Of a stretch of DNA of 64,000 nucleotides, positions 13,089-51,333 are shown piece by piece; the first letter of the stretch is position 1, and every line of letters begins with the position of its first letter. Source of the stretch: Thermocoleostomius sinensis A174 (GTDB taxonomy: Bacteria > Cyanobacteriota > Cyanobacteriia > Elainellales > Elainellaceae). Below the pieces are notes generated by a model. That model made no database searches. It worked only from the letters and a program-made list of their open reading frames with translations, and was not told the DNA's origin. The position numbers and the translations under genes were made by a program. The stretch lies in assembly GCF_026802175.1 (NCBI RefSeq), contig NZ_CP113797.1, forward strand, positions 3,697,026 through 3,761,025. The letters are read 5' to 3'.

Positions 13089-14456
13089 ATGAATCAATTG
13101 AATGACCCTCAATGGATAAATGCCAAGGAATTTCTACAGCGATACCTAAAACCTGGCGAACGCATGGTTGCACCTCGCTACTTTAAGCAAGAAGCCTCTA
13201 AACTGTATCCTTATAAATTGACTCATGAATTAACGCCCGATTACTATGAGTGGTTGCTTCTTCACAAAGGCCAGTTGCAACAGATTGATCCCACTTTTTT
13301 GAAGCAGGCAGTGACTCAACTGAATCCTGTCTTTGCCAATGAAGTGTTTGTAATTTTAACGGCTCGATCGGATGTGCCAGCGTTGACTAATTCTGTGCAT
13401 TTGCAACCGCTTTGGCAACAGGTGAACCCATCGCTAGAGGGAGGCTCGTCATTTGGATGGCGTCATACTCTGTCACAGCCCCTCGATCGCCTTAAACAAC
13501 AATTGGCTGATCCTCGGATTGATGGGCTAACGCAACAATTGAATGCAGTCCTCGATCGCTTGATTCAGATAGAGCGAGCTATCAAGAAGCTGAACCAAGC
13601 TATCCAAGGGCAAACCGCTGCTCGTCCTCGTCCGAATGCCCCTCTCGCCACGTTGTCGTTGGAAGAGTTGCGATCGACCTGTCGTGCTTCATGCCAGACG
13701 GCTTACTTGGGGGATAACATCATTCTGTGCCGGGTCTTAGGAAACTATCTTGTCTACGGCGATACGAAAGATGTGGGCATTGTGCCACATCTAAGCTTGA
13801 ACGGGTTTTGGGAACCTTGGGTGACATTGCTGATGATGCGCACGGTGAAACCCGGTTGGTATTGTTTAGATGTAGGAGCTAATCATGGTTATTACTCTGT
13901 GGTGATGGCCAGCCAAGTTGGCCCCGCCGGACGAGTGATTGCCCTAGAGCCAAATGTTCACTTGGTTAAGCTAATTTGTAAAACTCTGGAAGTGAATGGG
14001 TTCAACGATCGAGCCAAAGCATTGTGCAAAGCTGTTTCTGAAAAGGCAGGCGAGGTTGTGAAGCTAGTGGTTCCTCATGGGCAAACAGGCCATGCTTCGA
14101 TTTATGGCAACGCTAGAGACTCGGATGAAGTCATGGACGTGGAAACGGTGACGATCGATCAACTCACCGCAGACTGGCCACAGGTCAACTTCATCAAAAT
14201 TGACGTGGAAGGAGCCGAAGAAAACGTTTGGCGTGGAATGCAAGAAACGGTGCGGCGTAACCCTAACCTTGCCATTGTGCTGGAATTTGGCGCTAATCGG
14301 TATGCTAATCCCAGAGCGTTTTTAGAAGAAATTGTGGCGGCAGGCTTTATTTTGCGATACATCGACTATGATACCCATCCCAAGGAACTCTCGATCGAAC
14401 GATGCCTCAGCGATCGATCAGATAGCTACTGGGATTTATTTCTTAGTCGCACCTGA
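13089..14456 (+). CDS. FkbM family methyltransferase with N-terminal extension
   Basis: 455-aa protein. The C-terminal ~260 residues are an FkbM-type O-methyltransferase: CLDVGANHGYYSVVMA at 259-274, RVIALEPN after it, and IKIDVEGAEENVWRGM near residue 375, the family hallmark. The first ~180 residues are unusual: a helical part followed by a predicted coiled coil (about 140-175, LNAVLDRLIQIERAIKKL). FkbM enzymes often methylate sugars or lipids in surface glycans. The gene follows another methyltransferase by 101 bases and may share a transcript with it. Confidence 0.75.
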   Translation: MNQLNDPQWINAKEFLQRYLKPGERMVAPRYFKQEASKLYPYKLTHELTPDYYEWLLLHKGQLQQIDPTFLKQAVTQLNPVFANEVFVILTARSDVPALTNSVHLQPLWQQVNPSLEGGSSFGWRHTLSQPLDRLKQQLADPRIDGLTQQLNAVLDRLIQIERAIKKLNQAIQGQTAARPRPNAPLATLSLEELRSTCRASCQTAYLGDNIILCRVLGNYLVYGDTKDVGIVPHLSLNGFWEPWVTLLMMRTVKPGWYCLDVGANHGYYSVVMASQVGPAGRVIALEPNVHLVKLICKTLEVNGFNDRAKALCKAVSEKAGEVVKLVVPHGQTGHASIYGNARDSDEVMDVETVTIDQLTADWPQVNFIKIDVEGAEENVWRGMQETVRRNPNLAIVLEFGANRYANPRAFLEEIVAAGFILRYIDYDTHPKELSIERCLSDRSDSYWDLFLSRT

Positions 14457-14598
14457 TGCCTTGCCCTAGATCGAATCATTCCCATACTGGTAAACCTCTA
14501 GGGGTACTCCTAATAGATTTCCTTTCCTCCTTCCTGCTTTAGCCTTCCTTCTTGACTGCCTGATAGGATGAAAGGGCACAGGTTGAATAGGAACACCA

Positions 14599-15186
14599 AT
14601 GAGTTTATTCGAGGACTTCAGCGCCTTCCTAGAAAGTCGTCTGGAGGAGTTTTTGCGCAATAATCCCCACCTAGAACTACAAGCCCTAGAAGAACAACTG
14701 CGTGAGCAGGAAGCAGAAGCAATTAAGTTGCTTGGAGATTTGCGCTTGCGGGAAAAACGACTGCAAGATGAAATTTTGACAACGGCGCAAGAAGTACAGC
14801 GGTGGCATGTTCGGATTGAGAAAGCTAAGCAAGCCCAGCGTTTTGATCTAGTAAAACCGGCCGAAGAACGGGAAGCGGCCCTACTACGACAAGGCAATCA
14901 GCTTTGGGGACAAATGGAACTAGTTAAAAAACGTATCGAGCAGACGATCGAACTACAGCGGCAGATTCAGATCCGTCGGCAAGAAGTACGGCAGAAAGTG
15001 ACCGAAGCCCAACAAGCTGCCCGCGCCAGTTACCAAACTCAGTCTGAACAGCAATGGCAAACTACTGGATGGAACCAGGGCTATCGGGTTGGCTATACCA
15101 GCGTTGCCGATCCCCTAGAACAAACGTTTCGACAGTGGGAAACGGATGAAGAATTGGAAGAATTAAAACGACAAATGGGGCGCTAA
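14599..15186 (+). CDS. TIGR04376-like coiled-coil protein
   Basis: 195-aa, almost wholly helical charged protein with no membrane segment. The N-terminus MSLFEDFSAFLESRLEEFLR followed by long coiled coils (about 35-150) matches, from memory, a cyanobacterial family named TIGR04376, whose function is unknown. A GYRVGYTSVADPLEQTFRQWE segment near the end is conserved-looking. AGGAA lies before the ATG. Downstream, before the converging lipB, is the DnaA-box array. Confidence 0.65.
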   Translation: MSLFEDFSAFLESRLEEFLRNNPHLELQALEEQLREQEAEAIKLLGDLRLREKRLQDEILTTAQEVQRWHVRIEKAKQAQRFDLVKPAEEREAALLRQGNQLWGQMELVKKRIEQTIELQRQIQIRRQEVRQKVTEAQQAARASYQTQSEQQWQTTGWNQGYRVGYTSVADPLEQTFRQWETDEELEELKRQMGR

Positions 15187-15242
15187 ATGTGATAAACTCA
15201 GCGGAGTTTTTTGCAGATGCCGCAGCTATTCAGGTTATGGGG

Positions 15243-15318
15243 GTTTTCCACAGGAATCCTAGAGTTTTCCACAGGGCTGTTTCGGTTTTCCACAGGATGC
15301 CGAAAAGTTTTCCACAGG
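15243..15318 (+). promoter_or_regulatory. Array of four DnaA boxes (GTTTTCCACAGG)
   Basis: Four identical 12-mers GTTTTCCACAGG start at 15243, 15264, 15285 and 15307. Each holds TTTTCCACA, the DnaA-box sequence known from cyanobacteria. All four are in the same orientation with centre distances of 21, 21 and 22 bp, close to two helical turns, so they face one side of the DNA. They sit between two converging genes, where no promoter is expected. Part of a replication origin or a DnaA-titration site is possible; no AT-rich unwinding region, dnaA or dnaN is adjacent. Confidence 0.75.
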
Positions 15319-15342
15319 ATGGGGAAGGATGTTTATTTTCCT

Positions 15343-16023
15343 CTAGTCCCTGATGATGTTTTGCATCTCCTCAGGAGAAACAGAGACAAGCCTGACTTGA
15401 AACACTTGCTCAAAAACGATCGCAACTTGCTGCTGCACCCGATCGAGACTAATTTGGGGAATAAATTGCGCTAAGCTGCCTACGGGTTTGTCGGCGATTC
15501 CACACGGCACAATTGACTGAAACCCCGTCAAGTCGGGACAGACATTGAGAGAAAAGCCGTGCATTGTAATCCATCGGCTGACTTTGATGCCGATCGCCGC
15601 AACCTTACAGCCCTCGACCCAAATGCCGGTCAATCCAGCAATGCGTTCACCCTTTAGCCCGTGGAGCGCCAAGACCTGAATTAACACTTCCTCAAGCTGT
15701 CGCAGATACCAATGGAGATCTGGCTGATAGTACCGCAAGTTGAGAATGGGATAGCCTACTAATTGTCCGGGGGCATGAAACGTCACTTCGCCGCCCCGCT
15801 CAATTCGGTGTACAGGATGGGGCGGATTGGCTGTATCAAACTTTAGGTGCTCTAAACGGCCGCCCTGACCCAACGTGTAGACGGGCGGGTGTTGCAACAG
15901 CATTAACACATCGTTCAATGTGGGCTGCTGACGACGGGCAGAAACCAACGATCGCTGCCATTGCCAAGCTACCCCATAGGGCACTAGTCCAGGTTCATAA
16001 AGCCAACCGCAACGAGAAGTCAA
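15343..16023 (-). CDS. lipB: Octanoyltransferase LipB
   Basis: Lipoyl(octanoyl) transferase, moving octanoyl groups from acyl carrier protein to lipoyl domains of dehydrogenase complexes and the glycine cleavage H protein. 226 aa. The family signature [18 protein letters not shown] starts at residue 76, the conserved Lys is in [14 protein letters not shown] (K140), and the nucleophilic Cys is C174 in VPCGI. Converges on the TIGR04376 gene; the region between contains the DnaA boxes. No lipA is adjacent. Confidence 0.93.
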
Positions 16024-16272
16024 TATCGAGACTCAATCGCGTTTCACACCTAATCAATCAGTCTATCCCATATCTCCCATGCGAGATCAAGCGTAATCTA
16101 GCCGAGTTCGAATCAAGAATTATCAAGGGATGCAAAACATTTTAAACGAGCCTGTCGTACAGAATACAAGGTGTTAGGGTGGGAGTATACACCCCAGTTG
16201 ACACTGATCCAGCTATCCAGATCCAGTCACACAAGGGGGATGACCCAAAATGTTCTTAGGGGAGGAAGCTTT

Positions 16273-16923
16273 ATGAAGCTTGTTATCCAGGGCAAAAATA
16301 TTGAAATTACCGATGCAATCCGCGAGTATGTACATCAGAAAATTGAGAAGGCTGTTAACCATTTTCAGACATTGACGACGGAAGTTGATGTACATCTGTC
16401 GGTGGCCCGCAACCCTCGGATAAACCCCAAGCAAACCGCAGAGGTGACAATCTACGCCAATGGAACTGTGGTTCGTGCAGAGGAAAGCAGCGAAAATCTT
16501 TACGCCAGCATTGATTTGGTTTCTAACAAAATCGCTCGACAATTGCGCAAATACAAGGAGAAACGGCAAGACAAACAGCACGCACCCGTGAAAACGGCAG
16601 AAGTCCTAGCCGATGAGCCAGTTGCCCCCACGTTGGTAAGCGATCGAACTCCTGAACTGCCTACAGAAGTAGTGCGGATGAAATACTTTGCTATGCCGCC
16701 GATGACCATTCAGCAAGCGCTGGAGCAGCTAGAACTGGTAGATCACGACTTCTACATGTTCCGCAATATTGAAACTGGCGAAATCAACGTAATCTATGAA
16801 CGCAATCATGGTGGCTATGGGGTGATTCAGCCCCGCAATGGCAATGGGCATACTAATGGCAAGCATCACAGTAAAGCGACTCACACGGCCCACGTAGAAG
16901 CAGCTAATGCAAGCCGAGGGTAG
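16273..16923 (+). CDS. hpf: Ribosome hibernation promoting factor, long form (LrtA)
   Basis: Long-form HPF (LrtA in cyanobacteria), which binds 30S and dimerises 70S ribosomes into inactive 100S particles in the dark or on starvation. 216 aa: N-terminal HPF/RaiA domain (1-100, [18 protein letters not shown]) and C-terminal dimerisation domain (about 133-185, [20 protein letters not shown] to [17 protein letters not shown]), then a His/Asn-rich tail. GGGGAGG seven bases before the ATG at 16273 fixes the start. The last 19 codons lie in the first copy of a 70-bp tandem duplication. Confidence 0.95.
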
Positions 16924-50461: not shown

Positions 50462-51333
50462 CTAGCCTCTTGGTTCTGGTTCATAGGCTCTAAGCTGGGA
50501 GGCTCGGTCGCTGTAGAGGGCATCTTTGGCGAAAAGGGCAATCGTTCTAGCGGCAACGATACCTGCGAATTTAATGGCGGCTTTATCTGATGCAAGCTAT
50601 CCAGCAAAGCACGACATACTGCTGGATCAGTTTCTCGATTCAGCATCAGTCGAAAACAGTCGGTTAAGTCCGCCACCGACAAAGGGGCCGATACTCCGTG
50701 AATGACCGCTTCCCGATCGTCAGTGGCCACTACGGACTGTTGCCGAACCCATTGCGTTAACCGCCGTACAGCCAGGAGACGTTTCAGAGCATCTGCATCT
50801 GATAACTCGTTTAGCAGCCGCTCTACAGTCCGATGACTTGCATGAGGAGTCGCCGAAGAATCGCCAGTTTCGCACCGAGTCACACGATCGATTGTTTGCC
50901 ATCCCAACAGTACCAACACTGCTGTTGTAGCCATTCCCTGCAAAATCATGCCTTTAGCAACCCAGGAGCCATGAGTTTCGATCCACAGCGCGAGCGAAAC
51001 ATAGGTGCCCACACTGACAACGACTCCACTGCAAAGCGCAACTGTGACTGGACGCAAGGATGGGTGCCAAAGTCGCCATCTAATTGACAAATGCCACTGG
51101 CCTTGATAAATCAAATAAACTCCAACCAGTGCGCCCAATCCTGCACCACTCGATACTACCAATTGCCAGTTCCAAATACATAGCAACAGCCCGATCGCGA
51201 GGCACAACAACCAGCCTCTTTTTTGCTCAACCGCTTCAGTTACACGATTGAACGATTTAGAATGCCACAGGGAATCGAATTGGTGTCCAACTTGATTCGC
51301 CCATCGTTGCCATTGTGGAAAAGCCTGTGTCAC
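50458..51333 (-). CDS. Membrane protein with helical (armadillo-like) C-terminal region
   Basis: 291-aa protein conserved in form with cyanobacterial proteins annotated as armadillo-type fold-containing. Hydrophobic segments lie around 40-62, 64-77, 92-116 and 125-145; the C-terminal half (about 165-245) is helical (VERLLNELSDADALKRLLAV, then DLTDCFRLMLNRETDPAVCR), followed by a Pro/Ser tail. Function unknown. Tail-to-tail with the kinase gene, sharing four bases. Confidence 0.65.
   Translation of the reverse strand: MTQAFPQWQRWANQVGHQFDSLWHSKSFNRVTEAVEQKRGWLLCLAIGLLLCIWNWQLVVSSGAGLGALVGVYLIYQGQWHLSIRWRLWHPSLRPVTVALCSGVVVSVGTYVSLALWIETHGSWVAKGMILQGMATTAVLVLLGWQTIDRVTRCETGDSSATPHASHRTVERLLNELSDADALKRLLAVRRLTQWVRQQSVVATDDREAVIHGVSAPLSVADLTDCFRLMLNRETDPAVCRALLDSLHQIKPPLNSQVSLPLERLPFSPKMPSTATEPPSLEPMNQNQEAS

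Follow-up and report, generated by a model that had tools for sequence, protein, structure and literature searches.

The window analysed here, a 64,000-nucleotide stretch of the genome of the filamentous cyanobacterium Thermocoleostomius sinensis A174 (C1:3697026-3761025, part of a single 5.81-Mb contig), raises the question of what a tight row of DnaA boxes does at a place where neither dnaN nor dnaA is near. Sequence reading and a pattern scan found four copies of GTTTTCCACAGG at 15243-15318 (the array, at C1:3712269), identical and on the same strand, as the initial annotation had described. Each copy encloses an exact TTTTCCACA on the plus strand, at 15244..15252 (box 1), 15265..15273 (box 2, 21 bp after box 1), 15286..15294 (box 3, a further 21 bp on) and 15308..15316 (box 4, 22 bp after box 3). 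The assignment to DnaA stands; TTTTCCACA is described as the usual cyanobacterial DnaA box (PMC4674748). At 3 bp past box 4 a weak inverted half box, TGGGGAAGG, is present on the minus strand (15320..15328), which agrees with the box complement at 6 of 9 positions, little above the shuffle mean of 5.20.

The array and its surroundings

Apart from the array the window contains one exact TTTTCCACA, a solitary copy at 51314 on the minus strand. With one mismatch allowed, boxes were found 17 times in the whole window against 21.4 times in shuffled sequences, so there is no excess; the unusual feature of the window is the tight grouping of exact boxes and not the overall box number. The genome-wide box count that had been proposed as a check gave 77 copies of TTTTCCACA in 5.81 Mb and 25 for the reversed control. 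With 77 boxes in the genome, the number of groups of four within 73 bp expected by chance is 1.2e-8 (Poisson). The extended form with flanking G's, GTTTTCCACAG, occurs 13 times in the genome, with none for the reversed control: four copies are in the array, two at C1:1841603, one at oriC and six are single. A chance repeat or a coding repeat was also considered because an 87-aa reading frame (15211-15474) spans the boxes, and was rejected since the spacings of 21, 21 and 22 bp (20 or 19 bp elsewhere) break the frame.

The array is situated in a 156-bp intergenic gap between two converging genes. On one side the gene F4 (14599..15186, plus strand), probably an original neighbour of the array, encodes a 195-aa protein without a Pfam match; F4 was found in 38 of 40 genomes, including this one. 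On the other side lies lipB (15343..16023, minus strand), which encodes a lipoyl protein ligase A/B catalytic domain. The suggestion that a promoter role is unlikely was borne out. The boxes lie past two 3' ends, and the only promoter-like match in 14400-16400, obtained with a sigma-70-type consensus scan, is at 16146-16119, beyond lipB. Boxes overlapping a promoter, as expected for a DnaA-regulated promoter, were thus not found at the array.

The array and the dnaN-linked origin

The initial annotation had proposed an unlinked replication origin, or part of one, as a possible function of the array, and had noted that dnaN and dnaA are not close. The latter is correct: dnaN is located at C1:1271134 and dnaA at 2278100, and the array is ca. 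2.44 Mb from the dnaN origin. This distance varies among relatives, from ca. 35 kb in G008 and 67 kb in G016 to 0.57 Mb in G007. The origin proposal itself did not hold up, as the genome has an oriC adjacent to dnaN with three exact and four one-mismatch boxes within 194 bp. In this oriC the DnaA-trio-like CTACTACT is present, and past one box come first GGCTCTACTACTGATC and next AT-rich DNA. Such a box-then-DnaA-trio layout has been described for bacterial origins, S. elongatus being among those tested (PMC8287927).

The array is, like an oriC, a cluster of DnaA boxes, and we compared it with dnaN loci for the other marks of an origin. TACTACT was found within 31 bp 3' of a box at 16 of 18 dnaN loci (the exceptions are G004 and G019) and at 0 of 25 array loci; these dnaN loci came from 17 of the 25 family genomes and from G029, and all except the one of this genome were picked for having a box pair. 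A looser trio pattern separated the two classes on average, with a mean longest run of 1.1 at 22 arrays versus 2.6 at 17 dnaN loci. The highest AT content in 60-bp windows was 0.653 at the arrays (n = 22), 0.735 at dnaN (n = 16) and 0.698 at the box pair near hemJ (n = 15), while random places, drawn from the T. sinensis genome only, gave 0.652 (n = 200). No AT-rich unwinding element above this background was therefore detected at the array.

A second DnaA-dependent origin, acting beside or instead of the dnaN-linked one, would account for the strong box array. Multiple origins have been reported for Synechocystis 6803 and Nostoc 7120 (PMC7198777), but the reported multiple-origin replication is DnaA-independent. 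The GC skew, which is usually irregular in cyanobacteria (PMC7198777), was sampled in 43 stretches of 20 kb; it did not switch consistently and is of no use for placing an origin. A flat skew might allow a second origin, and for lack of a consistent switch anywhere the skew cannot decide the matter. The outcome that had been named as evidence against an origin, a stronger box cluster by dnaN together with a skew switch at that place, was thus found in half: the cluster by dnaN is larger, and a consistent switch was seen nowhere. Since the array lacks the DnaA-trios and the AT-rich DNA of the dnaN loci, it is not a replication origin of the ordinary type. These sequence features disfavour an origin function, and we regard a second origin as very improbable.

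The 68 single copies of TTTTCCACA in the genome display a strand polarity with turning points at 2.36 Mb and 4.66 Mb (permutation p 0.003), one turning point lying within 0.1 Mb of dnaA. As a general feature this polarity was discarded, because p was 0.72 in G007 and 0.59 in G029.

Conservation of the array in related genomes

The new point, invisible as long as only the window is considered, is the conservation of the array. Pairs of boxes separated by 8-20 bp were searched for in 40 genomes, T. sinensis and 39 relatives, and were present in 36, with one match for the reversed control. By comparison of hand-picked gene neighbourhoods three recurring places were recognized. One is the dnaN origin; at another, two or three boxes precede a DUF2811 gene and/or hemJ; the third is the array at guaA (GMP synthase, named from sequence) and F4. 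We then surveyed 25 family genomes, one per species with T. sinensis included and many of them fragmented, starting from the guaA and F4 genes and not from the boxes. An array was present behind guaA and/or F4 in all 25, and in each the tandem boxes were antiparallel to guaA and codirectional with F4. Not every array is made of four exact boxes: that of G003 consists of two exact and two one-mismatch boxes, and in G002 and G020 no more than two exact tandem boxes lie within 500 bp of guaA. Three further genomes, from other families, also carry the array, at a distance from guaA of up to 500 bp in G026 and G031 and of ca. 545 bp in G030.

Six of the 25 family genomes have guaA and F4 as adjacent, converging genes with the boxes between them, and it is the place of guaA in these six that lipB occupies in T. 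sinensis. The two genes are not adjacent in the other 19 (in G018 they are nevertheless only 3.6 kb apart), and here the boxes are found with guaA in 13 and with F4 in six, never with both or neither. T. sinensis is one of the latter, its guaA lying 400 kb off and lacking boxes up to 500 bp from its end; the G009 array is ca. 590 bp from F4. A dependence on guaA alone can be ruled out because the boxes stay with F4 in six genomes. A link to lipB was likewise rejected: within the family lipB lies within 2.5 kb of the array in this genome and G010 only, and seems to have become a neighbour late. The three neighbour states require five changes on a tree of GuaA from 27 genomes, in which most branches are weak. 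The simplest history would be an ancestral guaA > boxes < F4 arrangement that was broken on either side several times, with the array kept each time. The retention of the array through these separations points to selection on the site itself.

The position behind 3' ends suggests another function, in which DnaA bound to the array would act as a roadblock or terminator against read-through between the flanking genes and replace a hairpin terminator. DnaA boxes act as orientation-dependent transcription blocks in E. coli, and the array follows the 3' end of guaA and/or F4 in a fixed orientation in 25 family genomes (at ca. 590 bp in G009). Furthermore, a consensus scan of the 156 bp between F4 and lipB detected no intrinsic terminator. 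However, the boxes stay with either gene after separation, which means that neither 3' end needs them: no exact box was found within 500 bp of guaA in 6 of the 25 family genomes and of F4 in 14 of the 25, G009 included. The placement between converging genes that had been pointed out is correct for T. sinensis, but it does not hold as a general rule since in some relatives the next gene is codirectional, for example in L117 (F4+ / boxes / rpsD+), which also argues against this function. This explanation is the main rival, although we consider it unlikely.

Architecture of the arrays

The array architecture was compared using hand-picked sets of loci, which applies to the AT and spacer, flank and half-box, loose-trio, and spacing and TACTACT comparisons alike. 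The AT and spacer, flank and half-box, and loose-trio comparisons took 22 of the 25 family arrays, and the first box of the L103 array was left out of the AT and spacer and the flank and half-box comparisons. The perfection of the boxes is partly a selection effect because exact boxes were the search target.

Exact tandem boxes of 24 genomes gave 51 spacings, which were 10 bp (1), 19 bp (2), 20 bp (9), 21 bp (24), 22 bp (14) and 30 bp (1). With 47 of the 51 at 20-22 bp nearly all are close to whole helical turns, so the helical phasing noticed in the window extends to the relatives. The sequence between the boxes varies, except for the flanking G's and for GACTTT or a near variant after one box in several genomes. 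A G precedes and follows the box in 86% and 86% of 69 array boxes and in 55% and 67% of 52 oriC boxes; this preference was absent from 10 single boxes of the T. sinensis genome. For an inverted half box after the last box, the mean best match was 6.73 of 9 over 22 arrays versus 5.20 in shuffled sequences (standard deviation of the mean 0.16). The relatives often have a better half box than the window, 3-6 bp after the last box, and in G007, G015, G020, G021 and G024 an exact inverted box occurs 15 bp from the nearest tandem box.

DnaA binding at the array is predicted from sequence, and the site could instead be read by another protein that recognizes GTTTTCCACAG, or be a structural or repeat element unrelated to DnaA. 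The G before and the G after the box are more regular than the 9-mer alone requires, and many relatives have an inverted half box after the array. The differing spacer sequences are not expected of a copied repeat. The same 9-mer, the same flank preference and a 21-22-bp tandem pair are also present in the dnaN-linked origins of relatives, and there DnaA binding is the accepted role of the boxes. A site unrelated to DnaA is therefore, in our view, quite improbable.

Box arrays in other cyanobacteria

In the phylum triple arrays were detected in 28 of 292 genomes. The 30 loci from these genomes comprised five with guaA, eight with the DUF2811 gene and one with dnaN nearby, the one of the window itself, and 15 without a probe gene. 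Twelve of these 15 were inspected, and three were located behind a gene for a cation-efflux-like transporter (named by eye from sequence). In these three loci, L142, L146 and L156 (boxes 1501-1551), which belong to other families, the triple array is codirectional with the transporter gene.

For 80 named guaA loci, five of which apparently come from G003, G006, G009, G010 and G022 and overlap the family set, 39 exact boxes were found at -50..900 bp of the guaA stop (70,648 bp) versus nine in the other 494,989 bp. Twelve loci had at least two exact boxes, all 37 of which were antiparallel to guaA; Elainella, Trichocoleus, Kastovskya, Phormidium tanganyikae, Oscillatoria and Pegethrix are among them. 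The loci that belong by name to the Nostocales had at most one exact box behind guaA. No exact box was found behind guaA at 66 of the 80 loci, many of them from Nostocales and some with a short downstream sequence. Together with the 28 of 292 genomes that have triples, these 66 loci show that not all members of the phylum have the site.

Two other groupings of boxes were observed. A second conserved pair or triple with a spacing of 21-22 bp usually lies 0.2-0.6 kb before the DUF2811 gene and/or hemJ and is codirectional with it. By hand count it is present in at least 17 of the 25 family genomes, including T. sinensis (C1:1841604-1841634, L061:9605-9635), the third box pair of G024 being outside this comparison. 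This site may be a DnaA-controlled promoter. At another place in G009 (L094:3205-3301) five exact boxes are spaced by 11, 22, 44 and 11 bp.

Proposed role of the array

We consider it likelier than the other readings that the array is a non-origin DnaA-box cluster which would bind DnaA molecules side by side and limit the amount of free or active DnaA, in the manner of datA and the Bacillus clusters. A datA-like titration site had been among the initial proposals; it gains support from the conservation pattern and appears the best of the readings offered. The array probably serves specifically to retain or control DnaA; we infer both the binding and the DnaA-limiting step. DnaA of three cyanobacteria has been found on the S. 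elongatus oriC by ChIP-qPCR (PMC7198777). In the proposed mechanism DnaA would occupy every box along one face of the helix, and contacts between neighbours would help it to form a short filament. As the array is not adjoined by DnaA-trios or a melting element, the filament would not open the DNA; instead, it would hold DnaA or change its nucleotide state, as datA does. When the array is duplicated in each round, less DnaA would be free for the dnaN-linked oriC. Loaded in this way, the array would most likely act as a DnaA sink or a DnaA-state switch that competes with oriC, either sequestering or inactivating DnaA.

A point against this function is the box number, since four is a small number for a site that would titrate by number alone. 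Furthermore, dnaA is dispensable in several cyanobacteria (PMC7198777), so that control of DnaA may not matter in all of them. More speculatively, filamentous cyanobacteria might keep a dedicated DnaA-handling locus in which three to four phased boxes in one direction would be the scaffold for a closed DnaA filament that is inactivated or recharged. Such a locus would be a separately arisen counterpart of datA or DARS, free in position and fixed in box phase and direction; we regard this as a tentative idea that is rather doubtful at present.

Cyanobacteria are often polyploid and sometimes DnaA-independent. Among the literature matches listed, subscription papers aside, no title or beginning of an abstract described a DnaA-box cluster, datA, DARS or a DnaA titration site in cyanobacteria. 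The array is a small, well-delimited stretch that could be removed, relocated or supplied in addition, by which one may ask whether a chromosomal site controls the DnaA supply as in E. coli and Bacillus.

Comparison with known systems

The array shares its TTTTCCACA boxes with the cyanobacterial oriC beside dnaN as described in PMC4674748 and PMC8287927, which in many relatives also has a 21-22-bp tandem pair. The oriC differs in having DnaA-trio-like repeats, AT-rich DNA and dnaN, all three of which are absent from the array. Of the E. coli elements as described in PMC4585315, DARS1 and DARS2 resemble the array in that their core consists of three DnaA boxes away from oriC. DARS1 depends on a flanking region and DARS2 on IHF and Fis sites, and their effect on DnaA, release of ADP, is opposite. 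E. coli datA is, like the array, a non-coding cluster of DnaA boxes, and is kept across strains; it needs an IHF site at a set spacing between boxes 2 and 3 (PMC4585315). It acts through hydrolysis of DnaA-ATP. In the array, boxes 2 and 3 are separated by 12 bp only.

The DnaA-box clusters that B. subtilis has outside oriC (Okumura 2012, as cited in PMC13220808 and PMC4585315) cause early initiation when six of them are deleted. The array corresponds to them in that several DnaA boxes occupy one intergenic place away from oriC and are kept in related genomes, here in 25 of 25. Unlike the B. subtilis clusters, it is uniform, one-directional, phased by two helical turns and not reliably close to oriC, and its role is a predicted one. 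The distribution differs as well, with one guaA/F4 site per family genome and, in at least 17 of the 25, the DUF2811-hemJ site in addition.
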